Assembly (NCBI RefSeq): GCF_039634785.1
Contig: NZ_JBBIAB010000006.1
Span: 1 to 64,000 of the forward strand
Reading direction: 5' to 3'
Source: Tistrella mobilis
GTDB lineage: Bacteria; Pseudomonadota; Alphaproteobacteria; Tistrellales; Tistrellaceae
Length of the DNA stretch: 64,000 nucleotides
Below are positions 52,430-59,088 of the stretch, one piece after another. Under the pieces are notes generated by a model. The model was given only the letters and a program-made list of their open reading frames with translations. It made no database searches and was not told where the DNA came from. The translations under genes and the position numbers were made by a program. Position 1 is the first letter of the stretch. Each line of letters begins with the position of its first letter.

Positions 52430-53844
52430 GAGACGTTGTCGTCGCTGTCGAGGTTGGTCATGCCACCGATAGCGGTTTCCGACATCGGCAATTCGGCGAG
52501 CCGGGCTGTCTGGCCCGGATCACCACGCCGGTATCCGAGGCCCCGGCGGCTATGACGCTGGACGGGTGATTGGGGGAAAACTGAAAGGGATCAGGATGTG
52601 CCCGCATTGCCGTCCCAGTTTGGTCCGGTGGCCAACGCCGTTTCTGATGCCGGGCTCAGGCTCAGCTGGGGCTTACGCCAGGCTTGGCGTGAGGGGAGGG
52701 CCTTCCGGTTGTCGACCTTTTTAGCCATGTGGTGGCAGCTTTCATTTCTGGATAGAGGGATCACCCTGTCGGCTTAAAGCCTGCAATATGATATAATATT
52801 CACACCAGAGATGTATATCTGCCGAATCGACGGTCGATCGTCATTTCTGAATGGGGCGCGGATCGGTCGATAGCCGCCGGACAGGGCCGTCCTCGTGCCA
52901 TGGGCGGCCGCGAGTCGGGCGAAGCGGGCCGGGGGCAGCGCGCATCTGCCAGAGGCCTGTTTCAGACACAGCATGAACCGTTGGTGATCACCAGATCGGC
53001 AAGGGGGCGGCGCGGCGCCCCGGGCTGTTTGGCCCGGATCATCACGCAGGTATCCTGGACGCCGGCGGGTGCGGTAGCAGGCGCAGCGAGAACCGGATCA
53101 AGACATGCTGGCTTTGCCGTCAGCCCTACCGCCGCCGGCAAACGCCGTCGTTGACATCGGGGTCTGGCTCAGCTGGGGCTTGTGCCAGGCTTTACGCAAG
53201 GTGGAGGTCTTCTGGTTGCAGATCTTTTTCGTCATATTGCGTCAGCTTTCATTTTGAGCAGAGGACATATTCCCTGCGGCTTGCAGCTTCAAATGATTGT
53301 ATTCAAGTCGGGAGGTCTATGCGATGCCTGATCGACGGCCGGTCTTCATCGTCAAAGGAGCGCGGATCGGTCAGCGATAGCCGAACCGGGCCATCACCGT
53401 GCCATGGGCGGCCGCGAGCCGGGCGAAGCGGGCCGGGGCCGCGCGCATCTGCCAGAGGCCTGTTTCAGACACGGCATGAACCGTTGGTGATTACCAGATC
53501 TGCAAGGGGGCGGCGCGGCGTCGGCGGGGATGACGCCGCCGGGTGCGGTTGCCGGCGCGGCAAGAACCGGATCAGGAGTTTGTGAATTTGCCGTCAGCCC
53601 TGCCGCCGCCACCAAACGCCGTCGTTGACGTCGGGGTTTGGCTCAGCTGGGGCTTTTGCCAGGCTTTGCGCGAGGTGGAGATCTTCTGGTTGCAGATCTT
53701 TTTCATCATATCGCGTCAGCTTTCATTTTGAGGAGAGGACATATTCTCTCGGCTTGGCGCTTCAAAATGATTGTATTCAAGTCGGGAGGTCTCTGCGATG
53801 CCTGATTGACAGCCGATCTTCATCGTCAAAGGGGCGCGGATCGG
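52430..53844. repeat. Decaying tandem repeat made of sulfotransferase 3' ends
   Basis: This 1.4-kb interval has no intact gene. It holds three units of about 470-505 bases, each with the same landmarks: GCGCGGATCGG (52856, 53360, 53834), then a diverged copy of the last codons of the sulfotransferase gene, then a shared tail with CAGCTTTCAT (52736, 53243, 53717). The unit at 53360 is closest to the real gene end and the leftmost is most diverged. Minus-strand frames there still spell pieces such as AAHGT, the gene's own terminal motif. Confidence 0.75.
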
Positions 53845-54711
53845 TCAGCGATAGCCGAACCGGGCCATCACCGTGCCATGGGCGGCTTCGATCCGGGCTG
53901 CCTGGGCGGGGGTGAGCGCGCCCGGCCAGCCGGCGGCGCGGCCCTGGCGGAAGAAGCGCCGGCCGGGGGCGGCGGCGTTGGTGAAGCCGGTTTCGGCTTC
54001 GCGGCGTTGCAGGCGGCTGAATGTGGTGCCGGCGACCGCACCGGCGACGGTTGCCGGATCATCGGGCCAGCCGAGGAAACCGGCGATGCGCGCGAAGGCC
54101 TGGTGCGGATCGGCGACCATGTCCTCGTAGCGGATGATCAGCCGTGGAAACCCCAAAGCGGCGGCGGTCCAGCTGTCGACATGGGCCGACCAGCTGCCGA
54201 GCGGCTGGCGAAGCTGGCCGTAAAGCCCCTCGCCGCCGGTATCGAGCGCGGCATCGGGCCTGGCCAGGAAATCGATCGCGGCATCGATCGACAGCCCCCA
54301 GTGATGGGCATTGGAGACCGCAAGATCGCGCGGATCCCGGATCAGATAAAGGCCGCCGCGGGTGAGCGCCGGGGGGAAGACCGGCCGACCGTCGGGTGTG
54401 GCGGTGAAGGCCTCGTGCGTGCGGTGGAGATGCAGGCCGGGTTCCGCCGTCAGCCGCCGCGCGAAGGCCGCCGGGCGGAGGTTCGACGCCTCGTCATCGG
54501 TGAGCCAGGCACTGTCGAGGCCGAGGCAGCGATCGAAAAGCGCCCGGTTGCTGGCCATGGTGAGCCAGCCCTGATCGAGCACGTCGAAATCCGGCGCCGC
54601 GCCGCCGTGCTTCAGGCTCCAGAGCGCCAGCCGGAGCCAGGTGCTGCCGGATTTGGGATAGGCGGTCACCCAGACGAAGCCGTCCCCCGGCGTGATGCGG
54701 GGCGCGGTCAT
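53845..54711 (-). CDS. PAPS-dependent sulfotransferase
   Basis: A 288-residue sulfotransferase. The 5' phosphosulfate-binding loop is TAYPKSGSTWLRLALW (residues about 15-30) and the 3' phosphate motif region is LIIRYEDMVADP (about 195). It ends in the usual RIEAAHGTVMARFGYR. It moves a sulfo group from PAPS to an alcohol or amine. It overlaps the HprK-like gene by four bases and so is co-translated with it. The acceptor is unknown; a peptide or sugar is possible. Confidence 0.88.
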   Translation of the reverse strand: MTAPRITPGDGFVWVTAYPKSGSTWLRLALWSLKHGGAAPDFDVLDQGWLTMASNRALFDRCLGLDSAWLTDDEASNLRPAAFARRLTAEPGLHLHRTHEAFTATPDGRPVFPPALTRGGLYLIRDPRDLAVSNAHHWGLSIDAAIDFLARPDAALDTGGEGLYGQLRQPLGSWSAHVDSWTAAALGFPRLIIRYEDMVADPHQAFARIAGFLGWPDDPATVAGAVAGTTFSRLQRREAETGFTNAAAPGRRFFRQGRAAGWPGALTPAQAARIEAAHGTVMARFGYR

Positions 54712-55556
54712 GACATGGCCTCGATATGATCGGCGAGCCGGGCCGGGGCCTGCCAGTCGCGGCGATGACGCAGACGAATGAGCGGCACATGGCCGAGCAG
54801 GGCCGCGACCCCGGCGAAGATCGGACGGGGCCCGCGCAGGATGCGGCCTTCATGAAGCTGGCGGACGTTGCCCTCCATGGTCTGGAAGCCTTCGAGGCCG
54901 CGGGCCGGCAAGACCTCCAGATCGCTGCCGCCGATGGTCTGCCAGAGGTGGAAGACCGCCGTCACGGGCAGGGGGGTCGTGTGCTGCGCCGTCGGCAGAT
55001 GACGCAGCCGCGGCACCCCCGCCCGGCGCCGCTGTGGCGGCGGGCCATCGAGGCGATCGGCGGAACGGGCACTGGCATCGGCATGCAGGGTGAGCCCGGC
55101 CGGGCCGGGCAGGATGAGCGCCGGCCCCGGCAGGCCCGAGAGCACGACGATGCCGTCGGCCAGCAGATGATGACCGCGGGCGAGGAGTTCGGCCGCAAGC
55201 AGGGATTTGCCGCTGCCGGAGACACCGGTGATCAGCACGGCCCGCCCGCCGACCACCACCGCCGTGCCCGAAACCGGCAGCAGGCCGTGGATATGGCAGG
55301 CAAGGCCGGGGAGCATGTCTTCGGCAAGCAGCAGCCGGGCGGCCGCGGGATCGGCGGCGCCGGTGGTGTCGATCACCGCATGCCGGGCGGCGGCATCCAG
55401 ATGGCAGGCGCCGCCGATGGGACCGGTAAGGCGGATGCTGCGGTCGGCCTCGATCCGGATCAGCGGGCCGGCATCCAGCGGCGGCGCGTCGGGCAAGGGC
55501 GGCAGCGGCCCTTCGGTGACGGTGATCTCGGGGACGGCAGCGGGTGCGCTTGCCAT
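54708..55556 (-). CDS. HprK-like (HPr serine kinase C-terminal domain) kinase
   Basis: A 282-residue protein that contains the P-loop of HPr kinase/phosphorylase (LITGVSGSGKSLLAAELLAR, about residue 130-150) without the N-terminal HprK domain. This stand-alone form is widespread in proteobacteria near peptide-modification and HprK-related systems, where it may phosphorylate a serine. The acidic phosphate-binding details cannot be checked by eye. The start overlaps the Rrf2 stop by one base, and the stop overlaps the sulfotransferase start, so the three genes are one unit. Confidence 0.8.
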   Translation of the reverse strand: MASAPAAVPEITVTEGPLPPLPDAPPLDAGPLIRIEADRSIRLTGPIGGACHLDAAARHAVIDTTGAADPAAARLLLAEDMLPGLACHIHGLLPVSGTAVVVGGRAVLITGVSGSGKSLLAAELLARGHHLLADGIVVLSGLPGPALILPGPAGLTLHADASARSADRLDGPPPQRRRAGVPRLRHLPTAQHTTPLPVTAVFHLWQTIGGSDLEVLPARGLEGFQTMEGNVRQLHEGRILRGPRPIFAGVAALLGHVPLIRLRHRRDWQAPARLADHIEAMS

Positions 55557-56005
55557 CAGATGTGGTACATCAGGGTCTGGCGGTCGGCATCCGACAGGTT
55601 GCGCATTTCGGCAAGCGTGCGGTTGTCGAGGATGCCGGCGATGGCATTGCGGACATCCATCATCATCAGCCGCACCGCACATTGTTCCTCGTTGATGCAG
55701 TCCTCGCAGCGGCGATAGGAACGGCGGCTGGCACAGGCGATCGGGGCGAGCGGGCCGTCGAGCACCCGGATTACATGACCGATCCGGATGTCGGAGGCCG
55801 GGCGGGCGAGGGTATAGCCGCCGCCCTTGCCCTTCTTGCTGTGCACGAAGCCGGCATTGCGCAGCTCGCCCAGGATCGCGTCGAGGAACTTCTTGGGGAT
55901 CTCGTTTTCAGCAGCGATATCGGAGACCAGGGACAGCTCACCCGGCTCTTTGCCCGCCAGATGCACCAGGGCCTTGAGCCCGTACTTGCCCTTGTTGGTC
56001 AGCAT
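55556..56005 (-). CDS. Rrf2-family transcriptional regulator
   Basis: A 149-residue protein with the Rrf2 winged helix (MLTNKGKYGLKALVHLAGKE, then IPKKFLDAILGELRNAGFV). Four cysteines occur in the span from CASRRSYRRCEDC to the later NEEQC; in relatives such residues hold an iron-sulfur cluster or sense redox/sulfur state. It overlaps the end of the MFS gene by 68 bases and precedes the HprK-like gene directly. It likely controls this gene group in response to sulfur or redox conditions. Confidence 0.88.
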   Translation of the reverse strand: MLTNKGKYGLKALVHLAGKEPGELSLVSDIAAENEIPKKFLDAILGELRNAGFVHSKKGKGGGYTLARPASDIRIGHVIRVLDGPLAPIACASRRSYRRCEDCINEEQCAVRLMMMDVRNAIAGILDNRTLAEMRNLSDADRQTLMYHI

Positions 56006-57227
56006 TTTGGTCGGGGGTCTCCGCAGGCCGCGTCAGAAAGTCTTTGTGGCCGGTAGAGATAGTGGAATGACGCCACAGGATCAACGCTGCAAGGCCGAGC
56101 ACGGCGCCGAAACCCGTCAGGGCCGTCTTCTGCCCCCATTGGTCGGCGACGACGCCGGTCAGGATCACCGGCAGGCTGAAGCCTGTATAGGCGAGCAGGA
56201 AGAAGCCGGCAGTCGCCCGGGTGGCGGCCTCGCCGGCCCGCATCAGCACGCCGGCGAGGCCGCCCGCATGGATCAACCCGTAGCAGGCGGTGGCAGCCAT
56301 CGCCGTGCCGGCGAAGACCGCCGCGATGCTGCCCGACAGGGCGCCCCAGGCGATGAGCGGATAGCTGGCTACCAGCACCAGCAGGCCGCGGCGGATCGCC
56401 CGTTCCGGGGCCATGCGCCGGGCCGCCGGCACAGCCAGGATGCCGGGCACGATCACCAGGAAGGTGGCGAAACCGGCATGGGCGCCAAGCCCGGCGCGGG
56501 CGAGGGTGGCGGGCAGCACCGCGATCACCAGCCCGACCACGGCCCAGGCGATGCAGATCGCGCCGCCGAAGACCAGCGTGCCGGGGGGGAAGGCCGGGCG
56601 CCGGAAGACGGTGCCGTTTGTCGCCAGACGCGGCGCATCGGGCAGGCCGTGCAGCGCGGCCTGGGCCAGACAGGCGAGGCCGATCCAGGCCGGGCCGCTC
56701 AACGGGCGCATCCAGGCCAGCGGATCGATCAGCAGGCAGAGCGCGGTTGCGGCGGCACCGAACCCGAAGCCGAAAGTGGTGGCGACCGAAACCTGTGCCG
56801 CGATCCGCCGCGGATCGGTGCCGGGCGGAAACTGCGCGGTCATCAGCGCCGGTGCCAGGGTCGAGGTGGTGGCGACCGCGATGCCGAGCAGGGCCCGCGA
56901 CAGGCCGAGGGTGACGATGCCCGGCCAGAGGATCATGACCAGATCGGCCAGGATGGCGAGGCCGAGGGCGAGCCTGGCCGTGCGCGCCGCCCCCAGCCGG
57001 TCGGGCAGGCCGCTGCCGGCCAGCAGCACCGGCAGGGCGCCGCCGACATAGGCCGCGAAGGCGAGGCCGGCCATGGCGGTGCCGTGACCATCGGCCGCCG
57101 CCAGCCGGGCCGCCAGCGGCGTGTGCAGATTGGCCGCCGTCGTGACGGTCAGCAGGGCCAGCGCCAGCCGGGCCGGCGATCCGCTGCGGCGGGGGCGCGT
57201 GTGGGCGGCGTTGAGATCGAGCGTCAT
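55938..57227 (-). CDS. MFS transporter
   Basis: A 429-residue membrane protein with about twelve hydrophobic segments and a polar C-terminal tail of about 35 residues. Its last 68 bases overlap the Rrf2 gene. It is probably an exporter of a small molecule or of the product of the adjacent genes. Regulation may involve the palindromes at 57327-57361 just upstream and the divergent MocR-type regulator. Confidence 0.82.
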   Translation of the reverse strand: MTLDLNAAHTRPRRSGSPARLALALLTVTTAANLHTPLAARLAAADGHGTAMAGLAFAAYVGGALPVLLAGSGLPDRLGAARTARLALGLAILADLVMILWPGIVTLGLSRALLGIAVATTSTLAPALMTAQFPPGTDPRRIAAQVSVATTFGFGFGAAATALCLLIDPLAWMRPLSGPAWIGLACLAQAALHGLPDAPRLATNGTVFRRPAFPPGTLVFGGAICIAWAVVGLVIAVLPATLARAGLGAHAGFATFLVIVPGILAVPAARRMAPERAIRRGLLVLVASYPLIAWGALSGSIAAVFAGTAMAATACYGLIHAGGLAGVLMRAGEAATRATAGFFLLAYTGFSLPVILTGVVADQWGQKTALTGFGAVLGLAALILWRHSTISTGHKDFLTRPAETPDQNADQQGQVRAQGPGASGGQRAG

Positions 57228-57326
57228 CGGGCAGCCTTTCAGGCGCGGCGAAGATGCCGCACCGGTCAGGCTGCCGCCGGATCCCGCGCCCCGCCAGGGA
57301 CGGGCCGCGCCTGAGGCGACCGGACT

Positions 57327-57361
57327 GTACCTGCCGTTGACAGGTACGGTTCAGCTGAACC
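57327..57361. promoter_or_regulatory. Two adjacent perfect palindromes, likely MocR operator
   Basis: GTACCTG-CCGTTGA-CAGGTAC (57327-57347) and GGTTCAGCTGAACC (57348-57361) lie back to back about 100 bases upstream of the MFS start. They include TTGACA (57337-57342) on the plus strand. MocR/PdxR-type regulators bind paired sites of the TACCT/AGGTA kind, so the MocR gene at 57688 is the best candidate. The second palindrome includes the stop codon of the small gene described at 57351. Confidence 0.55.
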
Positions 57362-57497
57362 TGGGCCTGGGGGCGATGCCGCCCGAGACCTGGTCGAGCT
57401 GGTCGTCGCCGAGTTCGTCTGCCGCCGCCGGTGGGCCGGCCTTGGGCGGCTCCGCCTTCGGAGATGTCGGGGGCGTGGTTTCCGGCTTGTCGGTCAT
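57351..57497 (-). CDS. Small peptide with double-glycine leader motif (candidate RiPP/bacteriocin precursor)
   Basis: A 48-residue reading frame not in any other annotation. It starts MTDKPETTPPTSPKAEPPK, a Pro/Lys/Ala-rich stretch, then carries ELGDDQLDQVSGG (residues 28-40), the classic double-glycine leader motif (E-L-x-x-x-x-L-x-x-V-x-G-G), then a core of eight residues, IAPRPRFS, ending in Ser. GGAG lies eight bases before the ATG at 57497. It is upstream, on the same strand, of the MFS, Rrf2, HprK-like and sulfotransferase genes. A terminal Ser as target for HprK-like phosphorylation or for sulfation is an inference. It could also be a stand-alone GG-motif peptide. Confidence 0.6.
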   Translation of the reverse strand: MTDKPETTPPTSPKAEPPKAGPPAAADELGDDQLDQVSGGIAPRPRFS

Positions 57498-57687
57498 CCG
57501 TCCGGCTCCGTTGCAGCTGGGGCTCGATCAACAGCATGACGGCTGCGCGATCCTGTCGCCAGGGCGGTGCGTGGCGGCGGTAAACGATGATTGTGTCCGG
57601 CAACGGAGGATCACGCGCGGGGCTCGACCGTCCCCCTGGTCGGGCGGTACGGTTGGCGGATCCGATCCAGCCTGGTGAGCCGACCCG

Positions 57688-59088
57688 ATGATCCCGCCGC
57701 TCGACCGCAGCCGCCCTGAACCGCTGGCCGATCAGCTGGCCGCCGCCATGATCGCCTGGATCGATGCGCACGGGCCCGAGACGGCCGCGGGCGCGGCCCT
57801 GCCGTCGATCCGCCGGCTGGCGGCAGAGACGGGGGTCAGCCGCAACACGGTGGTCGAGGCCTATGACCGGCTGGTGGCCGAGGGGCGCATCCTGTCGCGG
57901 CCGGGGGTGGGGTTCCGGGTGGCGCCGCCTGCGGCGCCGCTGCCGCCGGCCGCCCCCGATCCGGGCGGGGTGGCGGCGGTGGCGGACCGGGTGTGGCGGC
58001 TTTATGACGACCGGCCGGCGCTGCTCAGGCTGGGCGGCGGGCGGCTGCCCGACGACTGGCACGACACCACCGATCTGGCGCGCGCCATCCGCCGGGTCAC
58101 GCGTGAGGGCGGGCGGGCGCTGATCGATTACGGCACGCCTTTGGGCGAGCCGCGGCTGCGCCGGCTGGTGGCGCAGCGCCTGGCCCGGCTGTCGGTGCCG
58201 GTGGCGGAAGACCGGGTGATGCTGACCACCGGCGCCAGCCAGGCGCTGGATGTGGTGATCCGCGCATTGACCCGGCCGGGGGATGCGGTGCTGGTGGAAG
58301 ATCCGGGCTATCACAACCTTTTCGGCCTGCTGCGCCTGCAGGGCGTGCGCATGGTGGCGGTGCCGCGCCGGGCGGACGGGCCGGATCTTCAGGCGCTGGA
58401 CGCGGCGGCGGCCGCAAGCGGTGCCCGGCTGTTCGTGACCAACGGTGTGCTCCACAACCCGACCGGATCGACCACCACGCCGCAGATCGCCCATGGCCTG
58501 CTGACGGTTGCGGCGCGCCACGACCTGACCATCATCGAGGACGACATCTATGCCGATTTCGAAGAAGGCAGCCCGGCCGTCAGGCTGGCGGCGCTGGACG
58601 GGCTCGACCGGGTGGTGATGGTGGGCAGTTTCTCGAAACCGCTCTCATCCGCGCTCAGGGTGGGCTATGTGGCGGCGGCGCCATCGCGGATGCGCGGGCT
58701 GGTGGATGTAAAGATGCTGTCCTCGGTCGCCTCGTCGCGCTTCGCCGAACAGGTGATGGCGGTGCTGATCGAGACCGGCGGCCTGCGGCGCACGGCCGAG
58801 GCGCTGACCCGGCGCCTGGCCCGCCAGCGCGCCGCCCTGCTGCCGGCGCTGCGCCGGGCCGGCTGGCGGCTTTTCGCCGACCCCCGCGGCGGCATGTTCG
58901 TCTGGGCGGCCCATGACGACGCAGCCGATGCCCGCCTGCTGGTCGACGCGGCGGCAGCCCGCGGCATCGGCCTGGTCTCCGGCGCGGTCTTCCGGCCGGG
59001 ACTGGACGAGGGGCCGTGGCTCAGGATCAACATCGCCGCCGCGGCGGATCCGCGGGCGCGGGCGTTTCTGAAGGATCCGCTGGGCTGA
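57688..59088 (+). CDS. MocR/PdxR-type regulator (GntR HTH fused to aminotransferase)
   Basis: A 466-residue fusion. Residues 10-75 are the GntR winged helix (PSIRRLAAETGVSRNTVVEA), and residues 110-466 a class I aminotransferase-like PLP fold (TTGASQALDVVIRALTRPGD; TNGVLHNPTGSTT; the PLP Lys in MVGSFSKPLSSALRVGY). Such proteins sense PLP or amino compounds. It is divergent from the small peptide gene and the MFS gene and probably regulates them through the palindromes at 57327-57361. Confidence 0.9.
   Translation: MIPPLDRSRPEPLADQLAAAMIAWIDAHGPETAAGAALPSIRRLAAETGVSRNTVVEAYDRLVAEGRILSRPGVGFRVAPPAAPLPPAAPDPGGVAAVADRVWRLYDDRPALLRLGGGRLPDDWHDTTDLARAIRRVTREGGRALIDYGTPLGEPRLRRLVAQRLARLSVPVAEDRVMLTTGASQALDVVIRALTRPGDAVLVEDPGYHNLFGLLRLQGVRMVAVPRRADGPDLQALDAAAAASGARLFVTNGVLHNPTGSTTTPQIAHGLLTVAARHDLTIIEDDIYADFEEGSPAVRLAALDGLDRVVMVGSFSKPLSSALRVGYVAAAPSRMRGLVDVKMLSSVASSRFAEQVMAVLIETGGLRRTAEALTRRLARQRAALLPALRRAGWRLFADPRGGMFVWAAHDDAADARLLVDAAAARGIGLVSGAVFRPGLDEGPWLRINIAAAADPRARAFLKDPLG

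Follow-up and report, generated by a model that had tools for sequence, protein, structure and literature searches.

Does the 460-base interval that separates an MFS transporter gene on the minus strand from a divergent MocR/PdxR-like regulator gene on the plus strand in Tistrella mobilis encode a genuine small precursor peptide, and if so, what would process it? An initial annotation of the window (the whole 64,000-nucleotide stretch analysed here, part of the genome designated G000) had described, from the letters alone, a minus-strand frame of 48 residues with GGAG eight bases upstream and a double-glycine motif followed by IAPRPRFS, and each of these elements was confirmed in the sequence (Table 1). 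The small ORF opens with an ATG at 57497 and encodes MTDKPETTPPTSPKAEPPKAGPPAAADELGDDQLDQVSGG/IAPRPRFS, in which residues 28–40 are the recognition stretch and residues 41–48 the predicted core. This core is basic and without Cys, and across the two intact orthologs described below it reads I-[AV]-P-R-[PT]-R-F-S. Neither a sigma-70 consensus promoter nor a terminator was found around the small ORF.

Table 1 Features of the small ORF and its surroundings in the window.
Feature	Position	Strand	Evidence or remarks
Three tandem small ORFs (W-x-K-P-x-L, terminal Ser)	52591-53709	-	Behind the sulfotransferase and HprK-like genes
Sulfotransferase gene	53845-54711	-	Domain scan
HprK-like gene	54708-55682	-	Domain scan; likeness to HPr kinases around the P-loop only
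MFS transporter gene, downstream of the small ORF	55938..57227	-	PF07690, E 5e-6, below its cut-off
Inverted repeat 2, ACTGTACC-N11-GGTACGGT	57324..57350	.	Adjoins the stop codon and precedes the MFS gene; candidate operator of MocR
48-codon ORF plus stop, putative double-glycine leader mini-precursor	57351..57497	-	Frame, G001 ortholog, dN/dS
Predicted core octapeptide IAPRPRFS (G001: IVPRTRFS)	57354..57377	-	Ortholog alignment
Predicted recognition stretch ELGDDQLDQVSGG	57378..57416	-	L-12, L-7, V-4, G-2, G-1; weight matrix, C39 rules in the available part of PMC6363468
Proline-rich N-terminal part, residues 1-27	57417..57497	-	Most divergent part; in-frame length difference from G001
GGAG ribosome-binding site	57506..57509	-	Eight bases before the ATG; also ahead of the G001 start (CGGAGCCGGACCGATG)
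Inverted repeat 1, ACCGTCCC-N11-GGTACGGT	57627..57653	.	Between the MocR gene and the small ORF; candidate MocR operator
MocR/PdxR-like GntR-aminotransferase regulator gene, divergent	57688..59088	+	Domain scan

The initial annotation had staked the gene on its conservation in close relatives, and the outcome was divided, with an intact ortholog at the same place in one congener (G001) and only a remnant in a plasmid of T. mobilis. The syntenic G001 ortholog is 64% identical, ends in LSDDQLDGVSGG/IVPRTRFS and is 53 residues long when counted from the matching ATG and 62 when counted from the first one. In the DNA alignment, the ribosome-binding site, start and stop are all kept, as are 10 of the 12 motif residues and six of the eight core residues; the two frames differ in length by 15 bases, in frame, and the proline-rich N-terminus is the part that differs most. 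In plasmid pTM3 of T. mobilis KA081020-065, the same interval holds a decayed remnant with two in-frame upstream stops, no ATG, GTG or TTG from these stops to the motif, S replaced by W ahead of the two glycines, and an altered core whose frame continues past the missing stop (matches at C4:519411-519753 of genome G162 agree with the pTM3 coordinates of locus L059, 513730-527016, and were taken as one record with it). The small ORF is therefore intact in two of three Tistrella loci, and within this analysis it was found only in Tistrella.

Such a pattern could also be left by a functionless double-glycine precursor that is disappearing from the genus, its two intact frames surviving without a product, and this is the alternative that survives best, although we regard it as unlikely. 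Besides the pTM3 remnant, two observations fit it: no machinery adjoins the small ORF, and its dS between the window and G001 (0.88) greatly exceeds the values of four neighbouring genes (0.08–0.30). Against loss of function, dN/dS over the whole ORF is 0.32, and the 14 nucleotide differences within the final 21 codons cause only 5 amino-acid changes, where random placement gives a mean of 9.3 (P 0.003); two core arginine codons have been altered between the orthologs with arginine retained. Ribosome-binding site, most of the motif and most of the core have been kept while the N-terminus drifts. With only two intact sequences to compare, these conservation statistics are thin. Overall, we consider the small ORF very likely a real gene.

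The surrounding gene pair appears to be older than the peptide. A divergent upstream MocR relative was present in 28 of 30 loci encoding a relative of the MFS transporter (27 of 29 when the T. mobilis locus is set aside), and none of the 29 non-Tistrella loci encoded a peptide with the strict cleavage motif, L-x4-L-[DE]-x-[VI]-[SAT]-G-G (0 of 4401 ORFs of 25–250 aa; a far looser motif occurred in 14 ORFs among the MFS-relative loci). The MocR–MFS pair therefore does not need the peptide, and in pTM3 the repeats, the MFS gene and the MocR gene are retained though the peptide is dead. These comparisons make the peptide look like a later guest of the regulator–transporter pair.

An inverted repeat, ACCGTACC-N11-GGTACGGT (0–1 mismatch), is present twice in all three Tistrella loci, with one copy between the MocR gene and the ORF or its remnant and the other ahead of the MFS gene, and no further copies at up to 2 mismatches were found in 633 kb of loci (overlaps included). 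A similar repeat was present in 2 of 30 MocR–MFS loci compared with 1 of 580 control pieces; one of the two is the T. mobilis locus L059 and the other comes from Pseudooceanicola nanhaiensis (L055; CGGTACA-N12-TGTACCG), a single distant locus that lends weak support to an operator reading. No similar repeat was found in 27 other loci, nor in L053, where MocR is equally close. Because the small ORF lies between the two copies inside a widespread divergent MocR–MFS pair, control by MocR is suggested, with the two flanking repeats as its candidate operators.

The copy that abuts the stop codon could instead act as RNA. In that case the small ORF, which lies directly upstream of the MFS gene, would be a regulatory leader ORF in which stalling near the C-terminus (R-x-R-F-S, stop) toggles the hairpin and tunes the MFS gene, the peptide itself being useless. 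R-x-R motifs can stall ribosomes in the presence of macrolides, the R-x-R of the core is retained in G001, and the hairpin of repeat 2 is more stable than all 200 shuffles (z -2.6), without a T-run. We nevertheless find this explanation quite unlikely, as it treats only one of two copies of the same repeat: repeat 1 folds as RNA no better than shuffles (z 0.56), and since only one copy outfolds its shuffles, a DNA operator accounts for both. Moreover, repeat 2 ends about 97 bases ahead of the MFS start (57227), both repeats persist in pTM3 where the ORF is dead, and a recognition motif resembling the precursor consensus of the genus would be left unexplained. An intrinsic terminator after the small ORF was also considered, and none was found.

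The neighbourhood further raises the idea that the C-terminal Ser of the octapeptide is tailored by the HprK-like or sulfotransferase protein (+80 Da, as phosphate or sulfate). Because their genes share the strand of the small ORF and start 1.7 and 2.6 kb downstream of it, we retain this as a very slim chance, and the final RFS is identical in G001. However, MFS and Rrf2 genes intervene, the kinase resembles HPr kinases around the P-loop only, and both genes persist in pTM3, where the peptide is dead. Both also adjoin the array of other Ser-ending small ORFs, relatives of which occur in G001 (L031 12127-13055) and pTM3 (L059 9519-10105). On our reading of their sequences, these W-x-K-P-x-L ORFs resemble lasso-type precursors, and they are likelier substrates than the octapeptide. 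An HprK-like gene and a sulfotransferase gene, such as might accompany a modified RiPP, are thus near the small ORF, but with other candidate substrates present, and among the nine proteins scanned between 52.6 and 59.1 kb no modification enzyme could be tied to the small ORF itself. Among nine HprK-like loci of other genera (L123–L131), a similar Ser-ending W..P ORF was found in L123 and L129; a control search for Ser-ending W..P.L gave 4 occurrences in 30 control loci.

A terminal Ser near an HprK-like gene is shared with paeninodin-type lasso peptides that have a C-terminal Ser kinase, a kinase which, in the available part of PMC8498205, recognises the C-terminal Ser with little regard to the remainder of the peptide. 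The small ORF differs in carrying a double-glycine instead of a lasso leader and a core without an acidic ring residue, and the latter led us to reject it as a lasso precursor. Two separate observations concern these families. The HprK-like gene has a dN/dS of 0.64 between the window and G001, above three compared neighbours (0.16–0.31). PF13471 (lasso B2-like) has a single match per genome in the three Tistrella genomes, that of G000 being L118 7953-8477 (G000:C29), around which visual inspection of the ORFs revealed no lasso cluster.

That the frame is a chance ORF in GC-rich intergenic DNA is scarcely credible because an ortholog exists with frame, ribosome-binding site, motif and core, even though spurious frames abound in such DNA (148 ORFs of at least 30 aa overlap 48–64 kb) and a looser motif occurred at least once in 145 of 400 dinucleotide shuffles. 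The strict motif, by comparison, was carried by 1 of 311 window ORFs of 30–80 aa and was absent from all 400 shuffles, though these hold more such ORFs (mean 508), which bears out the claim of the initial annotation that a chance match is unlikely.

The motif was further compared with those of the genus itself, using a weight matrix built from 13 distinct cleavage motifs of its other double-glycine precursors. The small ORF scored 28.0 bits, its G001 ortholog 29.8 and the pTM3 remnant 3.8, while the best other 12-mer among 699,058 in 460 kb reached 16.4 bits. Both intact sequences fall under all 13 training motifs (31.9–39.9 bits), the small ORF because none of these has Gln at -8. Precursors with a GG motif numbered 11 in G000 and 23 distinct ones across the three genomes, and all 23 have D-10, D/E-6, V-4 and A/S-3 plus L-12, L-7 and GG, of which the collecting expression itself demanded L-12, L-7, V/I/L/M at -4, S/T/A/G at -3 and GG (a precursor with F at -12, L087, was excluded by it). 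The final twelve residues of the leader, up to and including GG, look like cleavage sites of the NHLP-type precursors of the genus, and the small ORF has the residues by which double-glycine leaders are recognised (L-12, L-7, V/I/L-4, G-2 and G-1). According to the available part of PMC6363468, 13 leader residues were enough for a C39 protease to cleave a synthetic substrate, and cleavage was blocked or impaired when L-12, L-7 or V-4 was replaced by a charged residue; the small ORF possesses all three residues. We consider cleavage of the predicted precursor by a C39 peptidase likely.

Candidate peptidases are encoded elsewhere in the genome. C39 peptidase (PF03412) matches number two in G000 (contigs C21 and C30) and two in G001, and both G000 genes are on contigs other than that of the small ORF, so a C39 peptidase-ABC exporter is available in the genome, and the usual, though not required, arrangement of exporter beside precursor was not found. 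The C21 locus is a complete NHLM exporter, in which TIGR03796 (peptidase-ABC, 1042.6 bits), TIGR03797 (ABC2) and TIGR03794 (HlyD) are each above their own cut-off, with an NHLP precursor nearby. NHLP-leader matches at E up to 0.01 number 21 in G000, 18 in G001 and 16 in G162 (some are two stretches of one protein), with 8, 6 and 5 above the cut-off, respectively, and the NHLP precursors of G000 are likewise on contigs other than that of the small ORF. Such precursors can be distant from their export and modification genes according to the available part of PMC2887384, a trait that the small ORF would share. We consider NHLM plausible as the candidate processor. The second C39 protein (G000:C30) could serve instead; PF03412 is its only annotation, and near it lies a candidate 214-residue GG-leader ORF (L084 7506-8150) with an early motif, VADEDLAKVTGG, possibly a larger exported protein.

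Other NHLP precursors of the genus illustrate the range of cores. One locus (L119, G000:C42:12467-15905) holds an array of at least six NHLP precursors above the model cut-off, with variable cores. Another NHLP precursor on G000:C5 (L085 6418-6690) has an 11-residue core, TVDWNNLNFPM, that is identical in G162 and reads NVDWNNLHFPM in G001, and is another short core in the genus.

Compared with known systems, the small ORF shares with NHLP precursors (TIGR03793/NHLM; Haft et al. 2010, PMC2887384, in the part available) the motif type L-x-D-x-x-L-[DE]-x-V-[SA]-G-G and a place in the same genome. Unlike them, it has no nitrile-hydratase-like domain, a leader of 40 residues compared with the average of 83 given in that part of the paper, and a core of 8 residues compared with 11–46 in the 11 collected G000 precursors. 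TIGR03793 gave no match to the small ORF at E up to 1 (cut-off 50.9 bits), none of the G000 NHLP-leader matches coincides with it, and a scan for an NHLP or Nif11 domain returned no NCBIfam match above cut-off and no Pfam match. The best NCBIfam match was TIGR03949 (lactobin A/cerein 7B class IIb), at 14.4 bits and E 0.025, below the 21.5-bit cut-off. The short double-glycine leaders of class II bacteriocin type (TIGR03949, TIGR01847) are, like that of the small ORF, short, with a V-S-G-G end and L-12, L-7 and V-4; the small ORF differs from class II bacteriocins in its proline-rich N-terminus and in having no adjacent C39-type transporter, and its core is, we take it, shorter than those of TIGR03949/TIGR01847 peptides. 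Since both the NHLP and the cerein-7B model tests fail, we class the small ORF only as a double-glycine leader peptide, an added member of a known group. Short double-glycine peptides of Gram-negative bacteria have been catalogued previously. A pearlin carrier peptide, as in the T. mobilis tmo system, was rejected, since tmo is described in the available part of PMC9303977 as a cluster dedicated to that system and provided with a carrier of its own, TmoA.

Searches for further relatives were made at several levels. A peptide search of named genomes, in which near relatives may be excluded, returned 591 pattern-matching stretches, none of which was confirmed, and tblastn of the peptide against plasmids gave no match. 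A two-row profile run over 385 genomes of the class (at most 17 candidates scored per genome) matched at least 99 genomes at E up to 0.5. Among the matches listed, only G001 and G000 fell below 1e-4, and the next (3.5e-4 and 1.3e-3) were a 99-residue double-glycine ORF on G000:C5 and the corresponding ORF in G162; a match in G148 (positions 2–54, E 0.088) is nearly full-length but has a stop inside, and the remaining listed matches are partial. With a single sequence as query, 19 of 58 genomes gave a match at E up to 10. The G053 match (E 0.0014) falls within a frame of 291 residues, and no ORF of its locus, L003, carries the motif. Among the open-licence papers listed, judged from titles, abstract starts and passages, none was found to deal with this Tistrella peptide, which also goes unmentioned in the available parts of two papers on Tistrella products.

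Taken together, our preferred reading, to which we give a probability of roughly 0.6, is that the small ORF encodes an orphan mini-precursor from which the NHLM system, acting in trans, is predicted to cut and export an octapeptide (our odds for the gene, the cleavage, the NHLM processor and this overall reading are judgements and were not computed). The proline-rich N-terminus would bear a C39 recognition element of 13 residues; cleavage after Gly40 would fall to the C39 peptidase of an ABC exporter whose gene lies elsewhere, with NHLM at G000:C21 the likeliest candidate; and the same exporter would release I-A-P-R-P-R-F-S from the cell. The divergent MocR probably governs transcription of the small ORF and the downstream MFS gene via the two flanking inverted repeats. 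We infer cleavage, export, MocR binding and any signal or antimicrobial role of the peptide from the comparisons above. From the initial annotation, the small gene, its C39-type double-glycine site and its short core were upheld, being kept in one congener, while the bacteriocin or modified-peptide (RiPP) part gained no support. A more elaborate version, a MocR-controlled, NHLM-exported octapeptide signal, perhaps Ser-phosphorylated or sulfated by the neighbouring enzymes and sensed or transported by MocR or the MFS protein, seems to us quite improbable.

The small ORF is a precursor of a kind that domain searches miss, a cleavage signal followed by eight residues, without an NHLP or Nif11 domain. 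If the predicted cleavage is true, a recognition element alone would be enough for the NHLM exporter of this natural-product genus to handle a substrate, and the cleavage-site matrix of the genus could serve to look for further mini-precursors. For this MocR, the pair of inverted repeats in turn provides a concrete operator hypothesis.
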